Shown: piece after piece, positions 9,245 to 53,503 of the stretch
How the letters are laid out: each line of letters opens with the position of its first letter
Position numbering within the stretch: position 1 is the stretch's first letter
Origin: Odontesthes bonariensis
Taxonomy: Eukaryota > Chordata > Actinopteri > Atheriniformes > Atherinopsidae
NCBI RefSeq assembly: GCF_027942865.1
Contig: NC_134526.1
Location: forward strand, 8,784,784 to 8,848,783
Direction: 5' to 3'
Length of the DNA stretch: 64,000 nucleotides
Program-made: the position numbers and the translations under genes
Notes under the pieces: generated by a model
The model's database searches: none
Told to the model about the DNA's origin: nothing
The model's input: the letters and a program-made list of their open reading frames with translations, nothing else

Positions 9245-12200
9245 CTACTCCTCTGTGTTTGGGGAGATGCCGCCAAACACTGCCTCGGCGTGCTGACCCA
9301 GCGGGTTGTAGAGGAAGGCTTCGATCTCTCCTCCGCCGTTGCCGTTTTTTTGGAAGTGGATTTCTATTATATCCTGCAAAGTTTCCTGCTCCATGACGTC
9401 TGGTATTCCCGTCAGCAGCACCGTCCGCGGACACATCGTCATCTTGGTCTGACGAGGAAAAGACAAAAATCTGATTTCCAGAGAAGGCGTCACAGATTTA
9501 AAACAGTGGGACTTTTTTTTTTTCTCCTGACAAGTGCGCTCACCTGTAGATTTGTGATCTTTCCATTCAGAAACGGAGTCACTCTCACTCTGTGCTTTGT
9601 TTGTTGTAGCTGCACTTCATGATACTCTGTTCCTGTCAAACCTTTGGCAACTGATGGGAGAAAAACACAGTAACGTGTAATAAATATTCACAAATGTTTC
9701 AACTTAAAAAGAAGCCGTGGGCCTACAGTATATTAGTAACTCTAATGCTCACTGTTGTTCTCCACAAACGCAACGACCACAGTCCCGGAGTCGGACAGGA
9801 ATTCACAGGAGTCCACCTCGCCGCCTCCGTTCTTCCTTTTGGAGAAGTGGATCTCCAGCTTGTTCACCAGGGTCTCTGTGTCCATCTTGGGCAGGTTGGA
9901 GATTAAAACGCGGTGAGAACAAACCTCGGAGTCGATCTGCAGGACGGGAGCAGCACCGATCACTTACAGGCTTCACTTAAAAGCTCGATTTCACACATTA
10001 GTTTGTGTTGCTTTACCTCCACCAGACTGGGAACCATCAGGTGAACTGGCCTGGCCTCCACAGAGATGCTGCACTCTCCTCCCAGATCCAGTTTATGTGT
10101 CTCTATCTTCAGAATATTACTCGCAACTGATGGCAAAACAGAAGCATTATTAATAACCAAAGTGAAAGTCGATGAGCAGGCACGTCTACATTTCAACAGA
10201 AACATCTGAGCAGCGACGTCTGCAGAGGCTGAAACGTTTAGCTCCTTTTTGCCCTCTAGTGGCTTGTTGTGACACTGCAGCAAAAACATTTACAACAAAA
10301 CATAGTCTGTTTATCTGTTTTAGGAAAAAAATAAGTTATTACATCAGCAAATTTAGACAAGAATAAAACCGGCGACATCAAAAAATATTTTCTACATGCA
10401 CGTACAGTTCTACAGTTGGAAAAGAGTGCTAAATGTAAGAATAAATTTGAGATAAATGCGTCCTATTATTTGTATTTCCTGTTACAAATCTAAGAACAAT
10501 GAAAAGGGGCAGTGACTTTCTTTTAGTCACAACAAATAATAATAATAATAAGAGGCTGGCCCAGCACTTCCTGACTTTAGGTATCGGTGAGGTCATCATT
10601 GGGTGAAACCAAGTGGAGGGTTTTTCTCTGAGTGGTAATTTGTTTTGTGTGTTTGATTTATTTTGAAGTTAAGTGTTAGAACTGGTTATCTTTTTTTTTT
10701 CCAACCATTTAATTTGTGTATGAGTTTTTGCTTTGGCGTGCCGTTTGATTTTTCTGAGGTAAGACAGCTGTGTACGTTCCTTTTTTGGTTTCTGGAACAG
10801 ACTAAAGCAGAACAGGTGTCCTCCCAGTTCTGCATAAAGGCTGTTGGATTTTTGGACTCTGGGGGCTTGAGAGTTGACATCATGCGTCGCCGTCTCTATT
10901 GTGACCAACGTTCAATAGAAAAGGTCAACTCAAAGAAGTACAAAGGACTGCTGAGTTTGCCTACTTACCATCTTTCTTCTTACACGACAGCAAGTCATAA
11001 GAATTCAATTCAAAATGAGCAAATGTTGAAACTTCTCAGTATCAACATGTTCTCTTTGTACAACTTTAAATGAAAAATTTGTTTGAAATGGTTAGCATCC
11101 CAACCTGTTTGATAGTTTGGTTGTAATTATCATCCTTAAATCTTGTCCCAAGTTTTTATGCAGCTGTAAGTAAAAACCTGACTTGCTCATCCATGCCTGA
11201 GCACAAACTCACCTTCCTCCTCCTCGAACGTGATCAGTGCCGTTCCTCCCTCCATCGGGTAAGTTATGTGCGGCTTCATCTCAAAAGTCTTCCAGTCGTC
11301 TGCGTCTCCCGTCAGACCGTTGAAGACGAACTTCCTCTCCGGCATGGCGGAGAACACCTGAAATGGACAGACCCCACGGGGTTCAGCAGAGAAACGCGAT
11401 GCACGTGGAGGTGCGAACTCTCTGATTAACGTACGTCCGTCTGCGCTCTCAGGTAGGCGTTCTGAGCCTCCTCTTCCTTTATAGCAGCCTGGATGTTCTG
11501 GATCTCCCTCGTCAGATCGCTCCCCTCCTGCTTCACCACATCCAGCCTCAACTAGAAACCCAAAACAGCCCGATAACATCTGCTCAACTGTCCAGTGTTC
11601 ACACAGTCAGGCTCAAACATCAGAGAGAACACACACCTTTTCATCTGCAGTCTGCTCTCTGTACGTGCGCTCATCTTCTTTCAGAATCTGGGTGATTTTC
11701 TCAGTTCGCTGCCTGAACTGCTTGATCATGTCCAGCTGGTCATTCTTGCTGTCGACCAGCTCCTTGTGCTCCTCCAGCAGCATCTCGTACTGTTTCTGTG
11801 GATGCAGCAGCATCAGAGGCTCTCCGTTATTCTACTTATTTCAATCTATCGAGATTTGTTCCAGCAGCCTAAAACCTATAAATATTTACAGCTGTGGAGA
11901 AAATATTCTGCTACTTTTTCTTGTTGACTTTAAAAGAAAGTGCTGCTCCTTAAAAACATTTAAACATTTAATTTTGTCATTTTTTCTCATAAAAGCTTCA
12001 CATTTTACTTCTCGTTTTGTTCCAAGGTGCTATCTAAAGCACACACTGAGGCTTAAACTTATAATATCACCATAAAGGGTTCATGGTGACATTTTGGGGT
12101 AAATATTTACAGTATTTTGCATTTTCTGACCATAAGTGGGTGGCTTTTAATCACTGTACAAATGTAGATCAATGACATTTAACTGTTGAAGGTTGTGTGG

Positions 12201-22871: not shown

Positions 22872-27267
<4,396 letters not shown>

Positions 27268-29019
27268 TTTGGCCGACAAGATTCACTCCAGCTCTTTATT
27301 AACCGTCTCCAGTTTACAAACACTGAGTTCCAGGTGGTTAATACTCAATGTTGCGCAGATAACCAGAAAGATAATCGCCAGTCAAACAGGTGCATCGCCA
27401 TTTTGGGAAGGATGATTCATACGTCAGGGTGCGTAAGCACGTAAAGTTAATGAGACGTAAAGGAGAAATACCGGAAGTTTAGAACGTTTGCCTTTAAAAT
27501 TAAAGCGTTAAGTCCAACTGAAAGGAAGTGTCAGTGGCAGAAAAATAATACATACTACTACAGTATAATCATTTTTCAAAACCTATTTTTGATTATATCT
27601 CTATGAGCATACAGTAAACATTTCAAAATTATCAGAGTTCACCACCTATGCTTTGAGTTATCTAATACAGCTGATTTATATAGCATTATATTTTGTATTT
27701 ATATACGCCTTGCATCTTTTTACTGTCTTTTTTTTTTAAATCTTTTTTTTTACCTGCTCCTATACTCTTCCTCCACATAAGTTTAACTCTCAGGAATAAG
27801 TCCTATTGTTTTCTGTCTTATGTTCAATCACGAAACGTTGCCCTTTGTATAAGTTTTTTTTATTTTCAAATAAGTAATGGCAAGTTTGTTTTTATTTCAG
27901 CACCTATCAACTGATACAAACCCAAACTGTTACCATTAAAACGTCAGTGGTTTGAAATAAAAAAAGGGGAAAAACCTTGCAAGCATAGGGAAGTAAAGCA
28001 ATTTCTTGCCACATGTCTGTAACTGCTTATTACTTTACAGATTCACCACTTCCTGAATGTAACAGATGTTCTCTTCTCAGCTTTATGACTACAGCTTATT
28101 GTTTTATACAACCTTGGAATAGACACAGCTATTTTCATGAAAAAAATACATGTATGTTTTATCTAATATTCTAAGTTATAAAAACTGTCGGAACATGAGC
28201 TCTGAAGACCTGGTGTTATATAACGGCTGTTTTCTGTGACAGAATCTTCACTCTTACACCAGCCGGAGTGATATGATACGTTTTAATGTTTTCATTTCTT
28301 CACTTGAAAATATAGAGACCTCTTCAGTCCTGAGAGGTTAAGCGGCACCAAGCAGGCAATAATGGTACGATGAATACCATAAAATTACAGGTGGATGATT
28401 TATTAACCAATTAGAAATTATACCACAAGCAGATTCACACATTCAAACCAAGTGATGTGGTTTTAGTAATGGGTAAAGGTGAAACACAGATCAACAATCA
28501 ACATCACTGTTCCTTCAACATGAATTGGAATAAGACAGCTGTCTAAGTTTGTCACATTCAAAATCATAGCAGTATGTAATTCATTCCAGAATGTAGGAGC
28601 AATCATTGATAAAGAAGTGCATTTTTTTAATCATCGGGCAGTTGCAGCAGTACACACAGAAACAGATTATTGACAGTGGGTAAAATAATATTGCCTCTGG
28701 AGCGTTTCAGTTGTAGTCTTCTTGATGGAGTAGAGTTTCAAGTAACAAATTGTGTGTGCTTACAATGACAAGTATCTATCTTGATTTTAAAATGATATAA
28801 CTTCACGTTCACTGATGACCGATGTGAATCGGATGCATGTAGATAGAAACATGCACACAACAGAACCCCTTAAGTGCAATTCAGTTTTACAGTGTTGCCA
28901 TTTACCACACGTCTCTAAGAACAAAGCATTTAAAAACATTTTTCCCTTATCAATCCCTTATCTTAACTCCTATTAGTGAATTGCATTAAAAAATGTATGA
29001 CAATGCATCGGGGTTATTT

Positions 29020-32000
29020 TCACACAATTAGAGCTCTTTTCTTGTTGGCGAGGAACACGTGCCAGTTGTGCCAGTTGAGCCCCACGTTCTGGGTGCAGGA
29101 GCCAGCGTCGGTGCAGGAGTAGCCATCGGGACAGCAGTGCTTCATGTCGCTGCAGCACACCGCCTACAGGAAGGACACAGGGAGCTTTAGTTATCCACTC
29201 GCAACTCACCTGCACATTCTGAATGGTTATTAAAGGCTGAACCCTCACAAATCATATGGTGGGAATCATTGTAGAATAGCTGCAGCAACAAATCCAAACT
29301 TTGTAATAAGAATGTAAAAATTTACTTTTCTGACTTACTTCTTAATTTACTATGTGTCAGACACATTTACTACTGTATATGGTAGTGCATCGTAAAATAA
29401 CTTTCATTAGGAGGGATGTAGCTGGAGGGGACGCACTGGAATTATCGCTGTACTATGTGACATACCTTAGGAGATGGACAGCAGCCCCAGGTAGTGTCAG
29501 ACATTCTGCAGCAGGTTTCATCATCATTGCAACTAATCTGGTCATCACATTTGATGACCGTGTTCTTTAATGGAGTGAAGGGGAGCTTGTACTCTGGTAG
29601 ATACACTGGCGTGAGTGGGACCGTCTCCAGCTGCAACATGATGAGCTTGTGACACGACATGGAGGCAATGTCACAGGTGTAACCCTGCGGGCAGCAGTGC
29701 TCCTTATCTGGGCAGCACACAGCCTGCACACAACAAATGACACCTCTTATTTTACATAGGTAAACCCTGATGAAGCTAACGTATACTGATACAGCACCTT
29801 ATATTTTCATGTCAAAGCTTCTTTGTCCAATCTCACGCACACAGAAAACCCGCACAGCACTCACATTTTGCAGCGGGCAGCAGCCCCACTGGCCCGTGAA
29901 CAGTCTGCAGCAAGAGGTGTGTTCAGGACAACGATTCCCATCGTCGCACTGCACAGAGCTGGAATCAGCCTGGACGCTCGTGGTAGCTGTAATCTTGGTG
30001 TACCATGGAATCACCACTTCTCCTTTGATGCACGAGGTCTGGCTCTCATCGCACTTGTAGTTATTGGGACAACAGTGGTCTCCATCAGCACAGCACACCG
30101 CCTGGTGAGAGGAAGTATGACTTTCACTTCATTCATTCTGTTTTCAGTTCTGCTTTCACCTGTTTTGAAGTGCAAAAGTTAGTCATGGAAAAATTTTGTG
30201 CAACAGCTATGGTCTGCTACCGATCTAAAAATTCAAAGTGCCAACAAAAGGATTTACATTCCCTTGGGTGATTTCAGCCTGTAGTTGATTATTTTTGATG
30301 TTAACAACAGAAATGAGAAGCAAAATAATTAAATGTATTGTAATGCAAAGTAGGGTCAAAACTGATTTCCAATCAATCCTCTGGGGCTTGAGAAACATAT
30401 AATTAGCTGTTTGCAGCTGAATGCATGACTACAGTGTGGGCGGATCTTTTCCATCAAGCAGAAACAGTATTGAAAGAACCTTTAAAAGTAACAAATGTCA
30501 GCTGGCTATCTAACTGCTGAGATATCTGTGTGGTTTTTCCCCGCGCATGAGAACTAGCTTCTTCTGTAGGAAAGAATTTAGTTTTGCCTATTGTGTGTGG
30601 TTTGTGTGCAGAGGAGGTTTCTGTCAACCATGTCATAAAAGTGCTCCACGTTTCTTCTCATCTATTCTCCCCAGTTTGTACTAGTTTCTCCAGATTGAAA
30701 TGTCATCCATTGTTAACTATTGTTATCTGTGTTCCCTCTTTCAACAGAATCAGAGTCAGTAAAGCTGTGAGGAAGAAGAGCGCACCTTCGGCAGAGGACA
30801 ACAGCCCCACTTTTTGGACGAGGCCATGAAGCAGCAGGTGGTGTGCTGAGGGCAGCTGGTGTGGGCGTCACACTGAATCCCGCCCTCTACTTCTGTATTC
30901 TTCTCATCCTCCTCGTCATCAACATCTTCTTCCTCCTCATCCTCAACATCTTCTTCCTCCTCGTCGTAATCTGCCTCCTGTGCGGTCATCTCTTCACCCG
31001 TTTCAGCAGAAGGAAATGCAGGAATCTTCTGTTTCATGGGCGTTGAGCCTAACGCGCTGTTACAGGTGAGGGTGGCCAGGTCACAGGTGGTGCCAGTTGG
31101 GCAGCAGTGTTCATGGTCTTCGCAACATACCGCCTTTTATACAAAATGACAGCAAAGCTTTCAGTCGCAAACATTTTTAGGACACATTTACAGCATCTAT
31201 GAGTATCTGTAAAGCTCACATGTTTATTGAATCTAAACCAATAGAAAAAGCCATGTTTCCACTATTTGTATTTAGCTAAGATAGCTCCTGGTGCTAATCT
31301 TAGCTGAATGGCTTCCACTGATAGCCTCATATCAATAACAGACACGACAGATGCCAATTGTTTAATTTGTCATTCTATTTCCTTAAATGTGACACCGTTC
31401 CTTTAAAAGACTGAAGTATGACAGTTTACTATGGACTTAAAACAAAGCTGTTTTCATGTGCTACAGTACATTTTGTCATTCTAAAGATTTAAAACCTCAA
31501 AGATCTGTCTGGAAGATCCTTGTTGAGAGGGTTTTTTGGGTGTCTTTAGTGCAAATTGTAAAAACCATCAAACCAAATAAATCTGGGAAATGTTGTCTAC
31601 AAACTGTCTCATTCATCAGTGGTACATGTTGGTTTGCTAACCTGAGGCAGAGGACAACAGGCCCAGCCACCCTCTTTGGTTTTACAGCAGGTGGTGCCAT
31701 CAGGACAAGAAGAGCTGCTGTCACATGACACATTCTGCATCTGCGCTCCAAGCCTGGGGATTGAAGGTATCTTCTCCACCCAGGGCAGAGAGAACAGGCC
31801 ATCCTCACATTTCTGTGCCGCCACGTTACATTTTTTACCCTTTGGACAGCAGTGTGTAAAGTCTTCACAACAAACAGCCTGGGGAGGATATAATCGGACA
31901 GATGGACGACAATTAATACACTATTAGCACCTTTAACTCCAAAGTTTTATACAGTTTAATTAGAACTTATAGCATTTATTATCTCACCTCTGGTAGAGGA

Positions 32001-35000
32001 CAACAGGCCCAGCCACCCTCTTTGGTTTTACAGCAGGTGGTGCCATCAGGACAACCGGTGGTGTCGTCACAGGGAACATCCTTTAGTTGAACCTGAACAC
32101 TCTGCCTGGGGATTGAAGGTATCTTCTCCACCCAGGGCAGAGAGAACAGGCCATCCTCACATTTCTGTGCCGCCACGTTACATTTTTTACCTTTTGGACA
32201 GCAGTGTGTAAAGTCTTCACAACAAACAGCCTGGGGAGGATATAATCGGACAGATGGACGACAATTAATACACGATTAGCGCCTTTAACTCCAAAGTTTT
32301 ATACAGTTTAATTAGAACTTATAGCATTTATTATCTCACCTCTGGTAGAGGACAACAGGCCCAGCCACCCTCTTTGGTTTTACAGCAGGTGGTGCCATCA
32401 GGACAACCGGTGGTGTCGTCACAGGGAACATCCTTTAGTTGAACCTGAACACTCTGCCTGGGGATTGAAGGTATCTTTTCCACCCAGGGCAGAGAGATCA
32501 GGCCATCTTCACATTTCTGTGCCGCCACGTTACATTTTTTACCTTTTGGACAGCAGTGTGTAAAGTCTTCACAACAAACAGCCTGGGGATGATATAATTG
32601 GACAGATGGACGACCATTTATACACGATTAGCACCTTTATACGGAAGCCCAGAGCGGACGTGGTACGTATAAACTTTTTTTTGATGGTTTTCTCGAGATA
32701 ACGAGTTAATTTACCGATGGTTTTCAAGGCCACTTTTTCTCCCCAGTCCGCCCCTGTTTATATGTGTTTATATGTATTTCTGGCAAAGGTGTACCCATTT
32801 TTACCCCCCTTTCATTGAAAACTGAATAAAGTAGCCTATGAATCAAACATGGAATGTGGAGCGTTTGTATAACAATTCTTCTTGTGAAAATGCACAAAGC
32901 AAATCCCGCTGGTGTGACAAGCATTTAGTATTCTCGAGAGAACGAGTTATTTGTCTCGTTATCTCGAGAAAACGATAACGGCACCTCTCGTGCATCATTC
33001 GGTAACCATGGAGACGGCCTGGTCCCCTCAGCTGGTCACTGATGAAGTTGACCATATCAGCAGGATCACTTAGGTGTAAACGCCTATTGAGCTGCAGTCG
33101 AGCCAGCCGTCTCCTTAAATGACGCGGGCTGATATGAAAGTTATCTCTACAAGACAAACAAATTGCGAACACATAAAACACATATAAACACATATAAACA
33201 GGGGCGGACTGGGGAGAAAAAGTGGCCTCGAAAACCATTGGTAAATTAACTCGTTATCTCGAGAAAACGATCATTGTTTTGTCGAGATAACGACATAATT
33301 ATCTTGTTATCTCGAGAAAACCATCAAAAAAAAGTTTATACGTACCACGTCCGCTCTGGGCTTCCGTACCTTTAACTCCAAAGTTTTATACAGTTTAATT
33401 AGAACTTATAGCATTTGTTATCTCACCTCTGGTAGAGGACAACAGGCCCAGCCACCCTCTTTGGTTTTACAGCAGGTGGTGCCATCAGGACAACCGGTGG
33501 TGTCGTCACAGGGAACATCCTTTAGTTGAACCTGAACACTCTGCCTGGGGATTGAAGGTATCTTTTCCACCCAGGGCAGAGAGAACAGGCCATCTTCACA
33601 TTTCTGTGCCGCCACGTTACATTTTTTACCTTTTGGACAGCAGTGTGTAAAGTCTTCACAACAAACAGCCTGGGGATGATATAATCGGACAGATGGACGA
33701 CCATTTATACACGATTAGCACCTTTATACGGAAGCCCAGAGCGGACGTGGTACGTATAAACTTTTTTTTGATGGTTTTCTCGAGATAACGAGTTAATTTA
33801 CCGATGGTTTTCAAGGCCACTTTTTCTCCCCAGTCCGCCCCTGTTTATATGTGTTTATATGTATTTCTGGCAAAGGTGTACCCATTTTTACCCCCCTTTC
33901 ATTGAAAACTGAATAAAGTAGCCTATGAATCAAACATGGAATGTGGAGCGTTTGTGTAACAATTCTTCTTGTGAAAATGCACACAGCAAATCCCGCTGGT
34001 GTGACAAGCATTTAGTATTCTCGAGAGACCGAGTTATTTATCTCGTTATCTCGAGAAAATGATAACGGCACCTCTCGTGCATCATTTGGTAACCATGGAG
34101 ACGGCCTGGTCCCCTCAGCTGGTCACTGATGAAGTTGACCATATCAGCAGGATCACTTAGGTGTAAAGGGCCGTGTATACTCTCGCAGCAGTGTGTCGCA
34201 GTGAGCTTGTCGCAGACATGACGCAGTTATTTTTGATTTATGCCCACTTTTGAAGCGCGATCTGCGCTATGTTAATCCCCCGCCACAATGCAAGAGGGAC
34301 AATCACGAACAAGGTAGGATTGTGGGTGTGGTAGGTGGCGTGTTTCTCTTCCGGTTACGGAGGTCATTCAACAACCATGGTGACTGGACGAATGCGCACT
34401 TTGATTGAGATGCAGCTGATCGATCTAGAAATAGAAGAAATATTGCTACTACTGGAGCTGGCAGAGAGGCGAAAGAATCGTCACGGTTAGCGTCACCATT
34501 ACCCGGTTAGCAAACAGGAAATACGCATAGTGTAGAGCGGATGTAGAGTTGACCAATCAGAGGCCTCCTTTCTCTCCTCCCTGCGGCGATGTCTGCGGCA
34601 CTGTCTGCGGTGAATTACAATTTTGGGGAGGTGCACCAGAGTGTCTGCGTTAACTGCGACACACACGCAGACAACCTGGTTTCCGAACATAAACCGTCCT
34701 TAAACGCCTATTGAGCTGCAGTCGAGTCAGCCGTCTCCTTAAATGACGCGGGCTGATATGAAAGTTATCTCTACAAGACAAACAAATTGCGAACACATAA
34801 AACACATATAAACACATATAAACAGGGGCGGACTGGGGAGAAAAAGTGGCCTCAAAAACCATTGGTAAATTAACTCGTTATCTCGAGAAAACGATCATTG
34901 TTTTGTCGAGATAACGACATAATTATCTTGTTATCTCGAGAAAACCATCAAAAAAAAGTTTATACGTACCACGTCCGCTCTGGGCTTCCGTACCTTTAAC

Positions 35001-38000
35001 TCCAAAGTTTTATACAGTTTAATTAGAACTTATAGCATTTGTTATCTCACCTCTGGTAGAGGACAACAGGCCCAGCCACCCTCTTTGGTTTTACAGCAGG
35101 TGGTGCCATCAGGACAACCGGTGGTGTCGTCACAGGGAACATCCTTTAGTTGAACCTGAACACTCTGCCTGGGGATTGAAGGTATCTTTTCCACCCAGGG
35201 CAGAGAGAACAGGCCATCTTCACATTTCTGTGCCGCCACGTTACATTTTTTACCTTTTGGACAGCAGTGTGTAAAGTCTTCACAACAAACAGCCTGGGGA
35301 GGATATAATCGGACAGATGGACGACCATTAATACACGATTAGCACCTTTAACTCCAAAGTTTTATACAGTTTAATTAGAACTTATAGCATTTGTTATCTC
35401 ACCTCTGGTAGAGGACAACAGGCCCAGCCACCCTCTTTGGTTTTACAGCAGGTGGTGCCATCAGAACAACCGGTGGTGTCGTCACAGGGAACATCCTTTA
35501 GTTGAACCTGAACACTCTGCCTGGGGATTGAAGGTATCTTTTCCACCCAGGGCAGAGAGAACAGGCCATCTTCACATTTCTGTGCCGCCACGTTACATTT
35601 TTTACCTTTTGGACAGCAGTGTGTAAAGTCTTCACAACAAACAGCCTGGGGAGGATATAATCGGACAGATGGACGACCATTAATACACAATTAGCACCTT
35701 TAACTCCAAAGTTTTATACAGTTTAATTAGAACTTATAGCATTTGTTATCTCACCTCTGGTAGAGGACAACAGGCCCAGCCACCCTCTTTGGTTTTACAG
35801 CAGGTGGTGCCATCAGGACAACCGGTGGTGTCGTCACAGGGAACATCCTTTAGTTGAACCTGAACACTCTGCCTGGGGATTGAAGGTATCTTTTCCACCC
35901 AGGGCAGAGAGAACAGGCCATCCTCACATTTCTGTGCCGCCACGTTACATTTTTTACCTTTTGGACAGCAGTGTGTAAAGTCTTCACAACAAACAGCCTG
36001 GGGAGGATATAATCAGACAGATGGACGACCATTAATACACTATTAGCGCCTTAAACTCCAAAGTTTTATACAGTTTAATTAGAACTTATAGCATTTATTA
36101 TCTCACCTCTGGTAGAGGACAACAGGCCCAGCCACCCTCTTTGGTTTTACAGCAGGTGGTGCCATCAGGACAACCGGTGGTGTCGTCACAGGGAACATCC
36201 TTTAGTTGTACCTGAACACTCTGCCTTAGTATTGTTGGTACTTTCTCTACCCATGGGATGGAGCATGTGTTGTCATCACAGGTCCGTTCAGCCAGGTTAC
36301 ATGTTTTACCTTTTGGACAGCAGTGTGTAAAGTCTTCACAACAAACAGCCTGGGGATGATAAGATGCAACAGATGGGAAACTATCAGAGCTTTACAGATT
36401 AAAAGAAGGACGATGGAAGATGACGAATGTATACCTCAGGTAGAGGACAGCATGCCCAGCCACCCTCTTTGGTTTTACAGCAGCTGGTGCCATCTGGACA
36501 GGCGGCTGTATCATTGCAAGGGACATCATTGACTGAAAGAAAAACCAGCAGGAAAAGAAACCCTTAGTAACATTGGGGAAAAAAAATGAACAGTTTCTTC
36601 CTCTTATGAAAGCTGCGTCTTTGTGATACAAAGCAAAACAGAAGTAAAGACTTTCGAAATATTAAAGTAATCCATCTTAATGGTCAATTTTTGTGGAGTA
36701 ACACATTTCACTGAAATATTCAGGCATTGGCCACATTTAGGGTATTTGGTCAAGAACAGGTGAGCAAGTGCACGTCAGGGCCATTAGTGTTGTACACTGT
36801 GGCTTCTGGGGCAGGACTGGAACAGGGCTGACCCTAACCCTGAACCTCAACAGACCTGCTCTGCAGCATCAGTTTAGTCTAAACAGGAAATACTGTAAGT
36901 TGTAACAACTTTAAGCTGAGTCATTTCATCATGTATGCACTGACACAGCAACAAATTGTACAACATAAAACCCTTGACTTCTGCATGGAAGGGATCTGGT
37001 GTGGCTTTGTTATTCTTCAGTGGGACATTGGTTTGGGTCCGCATGTTTCTTAAAGGAAAAAGACCCCATAAATCAACACAAAGTTGCTCTGAGTAATCAC
37101 CTGTATCTCAAGATGAAACATTTCTATCCTTAAGGGAGTGGTCTTCTCCGGGATGACCACATTCATAACACACTCAGGGTCCCTGAATAGTTTAATAATG
37201 TAATTGTATAGTGTGGCCCTCGCAGTCATAGATTTCAGCCTTGTGACATATCTATGGGAAATGGTGGACTGGAGCTCTGTCACACCAGGAAACATGTAAG
37301 TGTGTTTGTCAACATCTCATGTCACATCTGAAAAGGGGTGTCCTTGGAAAAAATCCAGCAAAGAGATGCATCTGGACCTCCATCGGCTGTTGGCCCAAGC
37401 CTCATCAGAAATGGTCTCCATGGAAGGGTGGCTGTCAGGAAGACGTTCTTAAGGAAGGGAAACAGGGAGAAAAGGCTGAGCTGTGCCAAATGACACAAGA
37501 AGTGGACTGAAAATCAGTGGCAGCAGGTCTGATGGAGGGATGAATCCTCCCCAGAGCCCGGAGCTCAACATTACTGAAGCAGTGTGGGATCATGCTGACA
37601 GAGAACGGTCAACAAAAGGCAGCCCACATCCAAAGAAGAGCTTTGGGATGTCCTTCAAGAAGCCTGGAGAACTAATAGGGTTCAGACTGTGTCAAAGAAT
37701 AAAGGTGATCAGCCAAAACGTTGACTTTGAAGCTTATTAGAAATGTGCCAACCTTGTTGTATTGTACTATATTTACATCTATGTTTACATCTACATGTTT
37801 TAAAAACTTGCACAGTGCTATATGTCCACTAATGCCTACATTGTAATCATTTATGGCCAGATCGACCGTGTGGAATATGTATAGTACATTGTCATGTAGC
37901 CTCGGGTATGTGATAACTGATGTAGCGAGATGTCAAGTTGGTAACTGGTCATTGTTGGTACAGTTGTGCCTTAAACTTTGAGAAACTACACAACATTTTG

Positions 38001-41000
38001 GTATACATTGTCGTTTTTATTTTTATGTATACTTTCTCAAATACTGTGATGCATGATTAAGATCTCACCTGCTTCTGCCTCAGCAACAGATGACACGGGT
38101 ACTTCCTCCTTGGAGAGAGGAACTGGATTGGCTGTGGTGACGTCTGGGTTTTTTTCTTTTTCGGTATCCTCAACTGCTATAGCAGTCACTTCTATCTCAC
38201 TATCTACATTACATACACAGAGTTTTAGACAATGATTGCTCAGTATGAGGAAGTATTTTAGGCATTATGCGCACCACAAACAGGCTGACCTTTCTGGTTC
38301 TCCCAGTCTTCTCTTATCCTGGCAGGGAACTTGGCCCACATTGGTAATTCTTTTTTGGTATACGGGGAAACACATTTCATGTGTCCAATGTCACATGTGG
38401 TGCCTTCAGGGCAGCAGTGTTGCTTATCATTGCAGCACACAGCCTATTTAGACAATAGAATCACATGGAGTATCACCTCAGAACCGTGCAGGATAAGGCA
38501 CAATAAAGACATGATAACTGCACTCAGAGACACCACATGCAAACCCTCCATTTGACTTTTACCTAATTCATAATCTCACTTATGGTATGGAGTGGTATTA
38601 GCATGTAAACCTGTCTGATATGTATGTGTGTAGGATGCTGTACCTTTGGCATTGGACAGCATCCCCACTTGCCCTCTGGAGTTTCACAGCAAGTTGTATC
38701 ATCTGGACACTCCGACACTCCGTCATTGCACAGAACTGTAGTCACAAGCTCTGTAACAATATAACAGGAACAGAAACATTTTAAAAACTGGACAAATGGT
38801 GATTCTAAGCGAGTTTAAGATGAAAAAAACTGGTAGGATTTCAACCTTTCTTGATGCAGGAACGGCTGTCGATGCTGCACTGGTGGCCCTCAGGACAGCA
38901 GTGTTTTCCATCAGAACAGGAGACTCCCTGATGAAAGGATAAGAAGTAAAGTAAGTGAAAGTAAGTGAAAATGTATGAGTGTATTCAGTGATGTGAAACA
39001 AACAAAGATGCTTTCAGACAGGAAGTATGTAACATCTAACTGCACAAACTAAAGGTTGAAAGGTCTTGTGCTAATTAATCAGGAAATTCAAAACCACATG
39101 TAAAGCTGGTCAGTACTTATATTAGACAGATGTGGAGAAATTTTCTGTTTTTTTAAGCCAGAGGCTTCTTCAATAATATAATATACCCATTAAACCAATA
39201 ATAATGGATTACTTTAAACTCATTCAAAAGGGTGAGATACAACACTGTGCAAAGTGTAGAGCCACCCCTCATCTCTTAATATATTGCCAGGAAAACAGGA
39301 AATAGACAGTGATTTATTGAAATATGTGCAAACATAAATGGAAATAAAGTATATAAGGCTCCTTAAAGATAAGCCAGAGTAAATAGAGATAAATTATTGT
39401 GCTACACAGCGTCCAGGTGTGGCATTTTGGAGTGATTTCAAATGTACCTCAAGAATAAAAGATGTTGGCTAAAGTGGAGGGTTTCCACATTCAGATTCTG
39501 GTTGTAAATATGTTTAAGGAAATTTAGAAAATACTTCAAATCTGGTACAAAATATCACTTGTTGGGAGAGACATTATAGCTGTCAAAAAAAGAATTAAAC
39601 AAAATAGTGTCTTGAATATAACTGGTTCAGTAAAGTGCAACAACAAAAATGAAATTCTTCAGGTTTCTTTGATCATCGTCTCAGGAACAACACATTAAAA
39701 TACTTCCTGAAAGGCTGCATGTCTATAAGAGCTGGTTAGGTTACCTTGGCTAGAGGGCAACAGCCAAACTTCGTCAAAGCCTTCAAGCAGGAAAACTCAG
39801 CAGGGCAACGTGACAGATCGGGACAGATGTTATCATCATCCTCACCCATATATGTCTTGATCATCCTGAAAGACTGTGGGAACGAAGAATGATAGAGAAT
39901 CTGAACATTTAATCTTGGTTCATGAACTGTTTGGTATTCTGTCTGTCACGCTTACTTTGGAGAAAGTGGGTTCATCAGCAGAGGTCCTTTCCATCCATGG
40001 GATGGACACAGTGGCATTCACACAGCTGGATGTGGCTGTATTACATAGTGTGTCTGCAGGACAGCAATGGATGTGATCCTCACAGCACTCAGCCTGTGGA
40101 GGCAGCAGCAGTACAGACACTTTGACTACCAAAGTTTCTGAAGGACTATCACACAAGCTGAGTGGGGCTTGTGCTTTTATCTGGTTTGTAAAGTAGTAAA
40201 ACACTACTGACGATGAATAGCACAATTGTTAAATAACTTTTCATTTAGAGTACGAGAGAATAGTTATCTTAGATGTCAATTTTACTATTATATGACTGAG
40301 GAACGAATGATTAACAAGCTGAAGCTGAAGTCTATGAAGACACAACAGCTGGACAACTTAGTTTATGATGAATCACAATAATAAACTAAAATCTAAAGTA
40401 ATCTAAATTAAACTAAAAGCAGCTGACACACAAATTCACAACTGAATACTTGTTAAAAATCTAATCTGAGCCCAGCTAATGCTAGTTTCCTTTTTTGCAT
40501 GCTAATAGCTTTAGCTCTTTATAGTTTGTATGACTGAAGTGAACGTATCTATGTTTGTGGAGATAATAATCAGTATGTTTTTGTTATTTAACTAAATTTA
40601 AGTATCTAAATAAAAACATTAGGTTACTTTAGCTTTAGTTTATGCAAGCTGCAGCTCTTTCAAGCTAACTTTAGCTAGATTTGGCTCTGTAATAGCTCAG
40701 TAGTTGACTGTTAGTTTGAGCTATTTCAAGCTTCAAGTGCTGAGTGACATTTATATTTCTTTGAATAAACATTAAATGGCAGAATAAATGGTGTAAAGAT
40801 CTTCGTATAATTAGTAGGGACTTCTTTTTGGGTTTTGTATGAAAAATGTTTAAAACAAATTTAATAAGCTGATGCACATTTTTTCATGAAAATGCACCTT
40901 TAAGTTATCTACAGGAAACAATTACGGATATAAAACGACTATCGAAACGGTTTGGCCACATAAAAGCACCATTCCAGCTTGCCTGAAGAAGCAACTTGAC

Positions 41001-41450
41001 CCTGGTAAAGTAAAAATGGACTTCTTTGAAGTGCCCCAAAAATGGCTCAAGTCTGGCACGAGTATAGAAACTGAGCCAGGACTTCAACAATTTAAGGTCA
41101 CTGCACATAGTTCATAGTTAGGCCAAATGTGACAAAAAAAATGTGCCAAATCTCTGTCCAAAATGGAGCAAATTCACACACCAAAATCTGACCAAATATA
41201 GCAACTTTTACTGACAGTGAAACTTACGACAGGTATTTATGATTTCTTTGTCGAGAAAAACAGTCACTTTGGGTATTTGGGTATTTGGGTTGTGTGCGGT
41301 GGCATCTACCTGATCAAATAGGCAACAACCATAGCCATTAGTTGGGCTGTTGCAGCAGGTGTGTCCCTCGTGACATCTCCCTCCATCTGGACACTCTTCA
41401 GCACCCACCAGGGCCAGCAGAGCCCAACAGATCACAACCCACCTCTGCAT
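29020..41450 (-). CDS. grn: Progranulin with about 15 granulin modules
   Basis: Minus-strand coding exons: 41310-41450, 39956-40093, 39745-39873, 38846-38927, 38644-38750, 38290-38443, 38069-38203, 36435-36532, 36107-36349, 35755-35997, 35403-35645, 35051-35293, 33427-33669, 32340-32582, 31988-32230, 31642-31878, 30786-31133, 29865-30101, 29466-29723 and 29020-29163. All phases join. A signal peptide ([17 protein letters not shown]) precedes the first module. Each granulin (CC-rich, e.g. [20 protein letters not shown] plus [17 protein letters not shown]) is split across two exons, as in other granulin genes. Progranulin is a secreted and lysosomal glycoprotein cleaved to granulins. Oddities: a near-identical tandem array, an extremely acidic linker (exon 30786-31133), a linker exon without granulin (38069-38203), and a second module lacking two cysteines. 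A noncoding first exon probably ends at 42067 (donor GTAAGG). Confidence 0.95.
32640..33368 (-). mobile_element. Inverted-repeat DNA transposon in a grn intron, copy 1 (IS3EU-like)
   Basis: The element begins TACGGAAGCCCAGAGCGG and ends with its complement, flanked by the 6-bp duplication CCTTTA (32634-32639 and 33369-33374). The first 62 bases match perfectly between the ends; the arms continue with palindromic CTCGTTATCTCGAG-type repeats. On the minus strand 32985-33146 looks like a transposase exon (acceptor TTGTCTTGTAG, donor GAGAG/GTGCC). It encodes [20 protein letters not shown], then [20 protein letters not shown], which resembles the N-terminal part of integrase-core transposases common in fish. 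The TAYGGAAG ends with 6-bp duplications suggest the IS3EU superfamily; that name is an inference. Confidence 0.75.
33727..34992 (-). mobile_element. Inverted-repeat DNA transposon in a grn intron, copy 2 (with nested insert)
   Basis: It has the same ends, the same CCTTTA duplications (33721-33726 and 34993-34998) and the same intron position as copy 1. It is 537 bases longer, because another element sits at 34167-34700. The transposase-like segment of copy 1 is split by that insert. Sharing the exact insertion point means the pair arose by duplication of an already occupied repeat unit, not by two insertions. Confidence 0.8.
34167..34700. mobile_element. Nested 534-bp element with 3-bp TAA duplication
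   Basis: Copy 1 reads GGTGTAAACGCC at the equivalent place. Here the text is GGTG-TAA, 534 bases, TAA-ACGCC. The ends are AGGGCCGTGTAT and, reversed, AGGACGGTTTAT, an imperfect inverted repeat; both ends also carry TGTGTGTCGCAG-like motifs. A 3-bp TAA target fits PIF/Harbinger-type MITEs. No coding capacity. Confidence 0.65.
36533..38068 (-). other. grn intron holding a Tc1-like relic
   Basis: Apart from the relic at 37360-37735, nothing coding is seen. The minus-strand open frame at 37050-37295 is not recognisable. Confidence 0.6.
37360..37735 (+). pseudogene. Tc1-like transposase relic, copy A (3' part)
   Basis: Contains CCCAGAGCCCGGAGCTCAAC and GAAGAGCTTTGGGATGTCCT, decayed from a Tc1-like transposase C-terminus (the [11 protein letters not shown] region), then GTGTCAAAGAATAAAGGTG near the end. 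Many frameshifts and a missing segment before the end. It shares a long alignment with copy B at 56655-57060. Confidence 0.75.
40094..41309 (-). other. First coding intron of grn
   Basis: AT-rich, with many GCTAA/TTTAGCT words around 40460-40740, and no exon or RNA signal recognised. Confidence 0.5.
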
Positions 41451-46700: not shown

Positions 46701-48815
46701 GGCCGTACCAGCCACGGTCATCTACTTCACATGCTACGACCAGCTGCGGGACTTCCTGAGGTTCGGCATGGGAATGCAGGGCAGCCACGTCCCTCTTCTC
46801 GCTGGCGGCCTTGCCAGATGTAAGTGCATGAGAATCCCACACCGACGCCCCAGCTGTGAGCAGTTTGCTGTAACTCGTGTGTGCGTTTGGGTTTATTGCA
46901 GTGGGGGCTGTGACGGTGATCAGCCCTCTGGAGCTGGTTCGGACCAAGATGCAGTCCAGACGTTTGACGTACAGCGAGCTGCGGGTGTGTATCCGCTCTG
47001 CGGTGGCCCAGGATGGCCTGCTGTCGCTGTGGAGGGGCTGGGGACCCACTGTTCTCAGAGATGTGCCCTTTTCTGGTGAGATACGTGAACACATAGAGGG
47101 GAAATATACTGTACTTAAGGGCCGCTGTAGAGACACAAAGTCAATCCAGTTTTTTTTTTTGTTTTTTTTTAAACTACACGTCATGTTGGGAAAAGGTGTC
47201 GAACCAGTCCTGGAGCATTTTACACTCTTGTTATTATTCAATCTTTTCAACGTGTTCAAAACATGAACTCTTAGACCTAAGTTTGGTTTGTTTTGGCCTC
47301 ACATTTGCGGGTTTGGGGGTGGTTTGGTTAGTATTTGAGAAATAAGGAATGGGGGACGGGGGGGAACAACCGAAATGGGCTGTTGTTTCTTGTTGATTGG
47401 CAAAGCAACAAATTTAGATTCCCAACTATCTCTGTTTGTGTATATCTGTAGCGCTGTACTGGTTCAACTATGAACTGGTGAAGGCCCAGCTCTGTGAACA
47501 GCATGGACTGCCTGAGGCCAACTTTTCCATCAGCTTTACTGCAGGAGCCGTCTCTGGAGCTGTGAGTACCCATCAGCAGCGCTAACACACACACTTCTCC
47601 TCTGCTGCTGTTGCTGCAGTGAAGCAATGCTTAAAGTAGCACGTTTTCATGAATAATTATCAGTTATTTTTCTATGAAACCTGAAAACTGTGCTGAGGAG
47701 ATGACACGAATAAGTCGCTTACTAGATTTCCATCCAAATGTATTCTGAAATCTAATGTTTGCACGTGTGCATACATGACTGTTCCACTAACCCAATTTTT
47801 TTGTTAAGAGAGGGTTCATCAAGATAGGTTCAAGGTGATCCAAAGTGTTGTGTAACAGTTGTTTATGGAGTGTTTAAGAAGAGCTGTAGAACAGGGTAAA
47901 GGAAGTAAATGAGTGCCAGTCAAACCATGGACAAAGGGCAAAAAACTAATGTGATGGAACATCTGGTTACAGGGAACTGAAACTGAATGAATACAACTGT
48001 ACTGGAATGATGACAGCTAAATTATCTGCGTCAACCATTAAGAAACAGCGTTTCATTACAATTTTTAAGGTTATTAAGGGACTGGGAAGCTCCTTTGGGA
48101 AAATGGATTTAATGCCGTCTGTGTTTATGACCTCGGCTTATCTGATATTGAGGTCTTGAACAATGTGTTAAAATCACGAATGTTTTAATTAGGACAGTGT
48201 TTGACGCACATGCAGGTTGTAATGTTCGAGTTAATAATTAAACAGCATTCTTATATAAACGGTTATCCTTTAAGATCGTTATTATTGAGGGGTGTGAGGT
48301 GTAACTCGTAGTATTGCTCAGGTAATGAGGGTTGGTGTCTGTTACACTCATTGTAGATTGCTGCAGTCCTGACGCTGCCATTCGATGTCGTAAAAACTCG
48401 CAGGCAGATCCAGCTCGGAGAGATGGATACTCTCGGAGGTCAGTGCTTGTATATAAACTTAACGTGGACATATATGTCGTAGGAATGTGCTTACAGTGAC
48501 TCATCATTATTCCCTTTTGTTATTACTCAGTTTCCGTAAAGAAGACCGCATCCACCTGGCACATAATGAAGGAAATCTGGTCTGAGTTGGGCTACAGGGG
48601 CCTCTTTGCAGGTACGCTTCAATTCTGACTTAGGTTCAGTAAAAATGTGCTGTTTTACCATCCAAAAAAAGTGAAATTATATTTGTTTTTTTTCAGGTTT
48701 CATGCCCAGGGTGATCAAAGTTGCCCCGGCCTGTGCTGTTATGATAAGCAGCTATGAGTTTGGGAAGACCTTCTTCCAAAAGATGAACCTTGATCGACAG
48801 CAGCTGGCAACCTGA
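43774..48815 (+). CDS. slc25a39: Mitochondrial glutathione carrier, solute carrier family 25 member 39
   Basis: Coding exons: 43774-43870, 44028-44087, 44231-44281, 44854-44963, 45062-45129, 46695-46819, 46902-47075, 47452-47561, 48357-48438, 48531-48611 and 48697-48815 (stop TGA). Phases join to 358 residues; human SLC25A39 has 359. Three carrier signatures are visible: [20 protein letters not shown] and [13 protein letters not shown]25A39 imports glutathione across the inner mitochondrial membrane. The first matrix loop (WKCFLYCNG ... YVCQNGTSC) keeps four cysteines, the set reported in the human protein to bind an iron-sulfur cluster and control stability. It lies beside grn as in human. 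Poly(A) signal AATAAA at 49267-49272. Confidence 0.96.
45610..46050. mobile_element. 441-bp near-perfect palindrome (foldback element) in an slc25a39 intron
   Basis: The sequence from TATGGAAGTTTTTCTGTGCC is mirrored as its complement, ending GGCACAGAAAAACTTCCATA. The arms are about 200 bases, the centre is near 45800-45815 (around ATCGATCCCTGTCTC), and a few T-run length differences break the symmetry. It is flanked by a 6-bp direct repeat CTTCAG (45604-45609 and 46051-46056). Its ends (TATGGAAG) resemble TACGGAAG of the grn-intron transposons, which also make 6-bp duplications. It would form a long hairpin in the pre-mRNA. Confidence 0.85.

Positions 48816-50289: not shown

Positions 50290-53503
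<3,214 letters not shown>

Follow-up and report, generated by a model that had tools for sequence, protein, structure and literature searches.

A probable recent amplification of a single granulin module within the progranulin-A gene of the teleost Odontesthes bonariensis

Results

The stretch of Odontesthes bonariensis DNA analysed here (64,000 nucleotides in full, hereafter the window) carries on its minus strand the coding region of a progranulin gene (29020..41450), for which a hand-built model gives 20 coding exons, 1302 amino acids and 15 granulin modules, with GT-AG borders at 19 of 19 introns, a single open frame and a stop at 29020-29022. In this model the exons follow, from 5' to 3', the order sn-c-n-c*-n-c-y-n-(cn x11)-c. 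One core exon of the array described below and the first 514 residues of the protein both match the Pfam Granulin family (PF00396) above its cut-off, and the twelve-cysteine pattern was found in the model translation in 14 of the 15 modules, which together place the gene in the progranulin family. The sole exception is module 2 (exons 3 and 4), where ten cysteines were counted by eye; with it, the original prediction of about 15 granulin modules holds.

Three features identify the gene as the teleost progranulin-A (GrnA). A ten-cysteine second module is the hallmark of GrnA according to the legend of Fig 4 in PMC4527844, and the 5' exon order sn-c-n-c*-n-c-y-n is that of zebrafish GrnA in Table 2 of the same paper. 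The flanking genes are also conserved, as judged from the legend of its S1 Fig rather than from the figure itself, where a RUN-domain protein, an SLC25-type carrier and ribosomal protein L3 are named among the neighbours of GrnA: Pfam recognises a RUN domain frame at 22875-23843, a mitochondrial carrier frame at 46874-47263 and a ribosomal L3 frame at 50689-50979, while the frames 11190-11606 and 26848-27282 of the same window have no Pfam match. Across the 945-Mb assembly (187 contigs) granulin matches occur at three loci, namely on contig C26, which holds the gene described here, and on contigs C28 and C23; under the GrnA/GrnB/GrnC scheme this set points to a teleost host. A 24-bp coding tandem repeat in exon 17 (30907-30965, minus strand) is part of an Asp/Glu run in an inter-module linker of the protein.

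Within the gene, a tandem array extends over 31752..36226 on the minus strand, with each end, as placed by the mosaic described below and by unit lengths, uncertain by about 4 bases. Its six core CN exons, 243 bp each, are exon 10 (35755..35997), exon 11 (35403..35645), exon 12 (35051..35293), exon 13 (33427..33669), exon 14 (32340..32582) and exon 15 (31988..32230), all on the minus strand. They differ pairwise by 0 to 3 bases, exons 12 and 13 being identical in DNA, and just two amino-acid changes occur in total, each in one exon: a P>S private to exon 11 and an F>I, located in the linker, private to exon 14. Six 243-base exons encoding the same 81 residues with two substitutions had been predicted, and this proved accurate; these are the exons lying fully inside the array. 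Two border exons on the same strand complete it. Exon 9 (36107..36349, 243 bp) has its N-half in the array and a divergent C-half, with 28-30 base differences from the core exons, and exon 16 (31642..31878, 237 bp) has its C-half in the array and a divergent later part with a 6-bp gap. The predicted interval, 31988..36349, thus contains the six exons but takes in exon 9 as well, a seventh 243-bp exon that differs from them as stated.

The exon spacings are 352, 352, 352, 1624, 1087, 352 and 352 bp, so that the exact 352-bp period proposed originally is found in five of the seven steps and fails in the other two, and as a period for the whole array it was rejected. The seven introns within the array belong to one family, and two of them are long (844 and 1381 bp) because both carry a 729-bp element at one and the same site, in one case with a further insertion nested in it. 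The first copy (32640..33368) has terminal inverted repeats, perfect over 63 bp at the ends, and an apparent target duplication CCTTTA. The second copy (33727..34992) lies at the same base position of its intron, is likewise flanked by CCTTTA and differs at 8 of 729 bases; it is interrupted at 34164..34700 by 537 bp that the other copy does not have, with an apparent target duplication of 3-4 bp and a placement ambiguous by a few bases. By its features, this nested insertion may be Harbinger-like. By local comparison, neither the 729-bp element nor the nested one has further copies in the rest of the window or in the segments L009-L012. The 729-bp element contains a 136-aa open frame on the strand of the gene (32846-33253), which has no Pfam match and could be what is left of an element protein, and each of its copies includes a short AACACATATA repeat (33168-33200 and 34792-34824).

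Once the insertions are set aside, seven 352-bp units remain, each composed of an N-half, a 109-bp intron and a C-half, with borders in the inter-module linker. These borders follow from the core exon, which is a mosaic of exons 16 and 9 that changes source once, in the linker. The distinguishing sites fit this pattern in 47 of 50 cases (3 of 50 do not), the core agreeing with exon 16 through base 122 and with exon 9 from base 127 onwards, and none of 20000 shuffles equalled this one-switch fit. Correspondingly, 28 of the 29 differences between exon 9 and the majority core sequence lie at or before base 122, and 22 of the 25 base differences of exon 16, which has in addition the 6-bp gap, lie at or after base 127. 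Such a one-switch mosaic means that what is repeated is an entire granulin module together with the intron inside it. The exon, which the original prediction took as the repeated unit while missing the insertions, is ruled out in this role by the mosaic, and seven copies of a module fit instead. Self-similarity runs out below exon 16 at about 31629 and above exon 9 at about 36376. Over its first ~30 bases the intron preceding exon 9 is similar to those of the array, and it is divergent beyond, so older duplications were also involved.

Aligning the units to estimate their divergence, a check put forward together with the original prediction, gives 15 variable positions and pairwise differences of 2 to 11 bases. 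Seven adjacent modules are near-identical in tandem, with one substitution inside the modules. The mean pairwise difference is 3.7% for the six introns 5' of the core exons (element insertions excluded) against 0.63% for the six exons. By class of site, 2 of 190 non-synonymous, 4 of 53 synonymous and 9 of 109 intronic sites vary among the seven units. The synonymous and intronic proportions are indistinguishable (p 1.0), and non-synonymous variation is lower than synonymous (p 0.02) and lower than synonymous and intronic together (2/190 against 13/162, p 0.002); for the six core exons alone, the comparison of 2/53 synonymous against 9/109 intronic sites (p 0.51) does not discriminate. As silent sites vary like introns and non-synonymous ones less, the protein looks constrained, and its uniformity calls for youth and selection and not for conversion limited to exons. 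Exon uniformity was therefore rejected as proof of gene conversion.

An old array, held uniform by continuing gene conversion among its units, is the strongest alternative, and we consider it improbable. In its favour, 2 of the 21 informative pairs of sites are incompatible under the four-gamete test, a result that allows for some conversion and that recurrent mutation could also explain, and the end units share variants that are missing from the middle. On the other hand, these incompatible pairs are few, the elements present in two of the seven introns have neither spread nor been erased, and exons are not specially homogenised, given that synonymous and intron sites vary alike. Ongoing gene conversion, which had also been proposed originally, is thus faintly suggested by the two site pairs and is not needed to account for the uniformity of the exons.

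That the array is an assembly artefact, in which one or two real units were falsely duplicated or misassembled, is less probable still. The data come from one assembly, in which exons 12 and 13 are identical; yet the seven units differ from one another at the 15 positions given above, the nested insertion marks a single unit, and a search of the 945-Mb assembly with one unit placed all 11 of its 11 matching pieces in the array or in exons 8 and 9 of progranulin-A, with no stray copies on other contigs among the best candidates, which were the ones scored (3 of 3 from the first look). The array is real and sits in the teleost progranulin-A gene.

The two element copies give the order of events and a relative clock. 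Positions 8 and 37 of the intron carry variants exclusive to the two element-bearing introns and absent from the other five of the array; these variants, the presence of one element at one site in both introns and the nested insertion in one copy indicate an insertion, then duplication of the unit, then the second insertion. Some mobile elements have target preferences, and the 729-bp element could in principle have entered one intron site twice independently, in which case it would be uninformative on the order of duplications, but the identical base position and target duplication, and the variants limited to these two of the seven introns, make this the least credible of the alternatives.

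For dating, a mean fish mutation rate of 5.97e-9 per site per generation (PMC9995274) converts the 8 differences in 729 bases to 0.92 million generations (0.40-1.81, counting error alone), and the rate of 2.0e-9 for herring (PMC5524536) to 2.74 million (1.18-5.41, counting error alone). The duplication of the element-bearing unit would then have taken place about one million generations ago at the mean fish rate. Since another pair of neighbouring units is equally close (2/352), it need not be the latest duplication, and the founding of the array should be older, as the introns of core units differ at up to 8 of 109 bases. Adjacent units are more alike than others by one measure, the sum of differences between neighbours being 26, a value as low being reached in 82 of 5040 orders, but not clearly by another, the correlation of distance with position being weak (Mantel r 0.35, p 0.08, seven units).

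Discussion

From our analysis, the locus is very probably a recent amplification of a single granulin module within the progranulin-A gene of a teleost. Recent unequal exchange, as predicted originally, is well supported by the shared element site, the shared intron variants and the one-switch mosaic of the core exon. The founding event may have been a mispairing of today's exons 9 and 16, at that time neighbouring and related CN exons, with the crossover point in the linker, at or beside an AGGC common to both. The resulting hybrid exon would combine the C-half of exon 16 with the N-half of exon 9 and so provide the module in a second copy, lying between the two exons. Repeated unequal exchange among identical units could then have brought the number to seven. 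Since the 243-bp core exon starts and ends in phase 0, every exchange of this kind gains or loses exactly one complete twelve-cysteine module in frame. A mobile element entered one intron, the unit was duplicated along with it, and another element then entered one of the two copies. The result would be seven doses of nearly the same granulin peptide per precursor. Identity stops at the borders of any tandem array, so the mosaic fixes the unit borders more firmly than it does the founding crossover, and the 3 of 50 sites off the single switch and the 2 of 21 site pairs in conflict with a simple duplication tree speak against the simplest form of this origin.

Tandem near-identical granulin modules have been described for Aplysia, oyster, sea urchin, amphioxus, lamprey, Xenopus and zebrafish GrnA (PMC4527844), where variation of module content is attributed to exon duplication or loss; in vertebrate Grn the runs often lie toward the C-terminal part, and they occur to a lesser extent in ray-finned GrnA and GrnB. 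The present locus is thus a well-resolved new case of a phenomenon already reported as recurrent in progranulins. Like those arrays, it has several nearly identical modules in a single Grn gene; here the copies number seven and their protein sequences show one change within the module and another in the linker, and the unit borders, the order of insertions and an estimated date are resolved. The origins of such repeated modules were still called unclear in the conclusions of that 2015 survey, and the base-level anatomy of this locus, with the relative clock provided by nested insertions, displays the unit of change as a whole module plus intron with borders in the linker.

The closest comparison is zebrafish GrnA, which shares the start sn-c-n-c*-n-c-y-n, the ten-cysteine second module and a run of near-identical modules in the middle of the protein (modules 4 to 7). 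It has 12 modules (Table 2 of PMC4527844) against 15 here, and its run after y consists mostly of separate n and c exons (same table) where ours has cn exons, which suggests independent amplification. For this orthologue 10 modules were reported at first (PMC1310530), and a transcript with 12 was isolated later (PMC4365039), a difference which fits copy-number variation and is not proof of it. Human GRN, orthologous by the GrnA scheme, has 7.5 modules and no near-identical run, mammalian modules being described as non-identical (PMC1310530); the core module found here matches the PDB entries for granulin-5 (E 2.8e-15) and granulin A (1e-14).

Progranulin dose matters in human dementia, and the locus may be regarded as a natural test of module number versus granulin output. 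Granulin dose and copy-number polymorphism are predictions of the amplification reading, and it is plausible, as originally proposed, that copy number varies between individuals and changes the dose. In the titles and abstract openings surveyed, copy-number variation of granulin modules does not appear, which is no proof of its absence. We may even suggest, as a rather doubtful extension, that the array is still active as a coding repeat of polymorphic copy number, with individuals of this species making progranulins that contain differing numbers of one granulin peptide, and, at the same time, that duplication of whole modules by crossover within the exonic linker, and not intron-to-intron exon shuffling, is a general route by which progranulins acquire modules.

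Of the two other granulin loci, the short gene on C23 was covered by motif listing, and the GrnB-like gene on C28 shows no run of near-identical modules, its best self-match, read as granulin exons, being 80% over 90 bases. With the repeat unit confined to progranulin-A, the amplification looks special to GrnA in this genome. A pattern scan of the GrnB-like locus gave 10 C-half motifs. Near this gene (C28:5480001-5490000 and 5500001-5508000) a stretch of ~655 bp can be aligned with its own reverse complement at 93% and has partial copies elsewhere in the locus; it is likely a mobile element.
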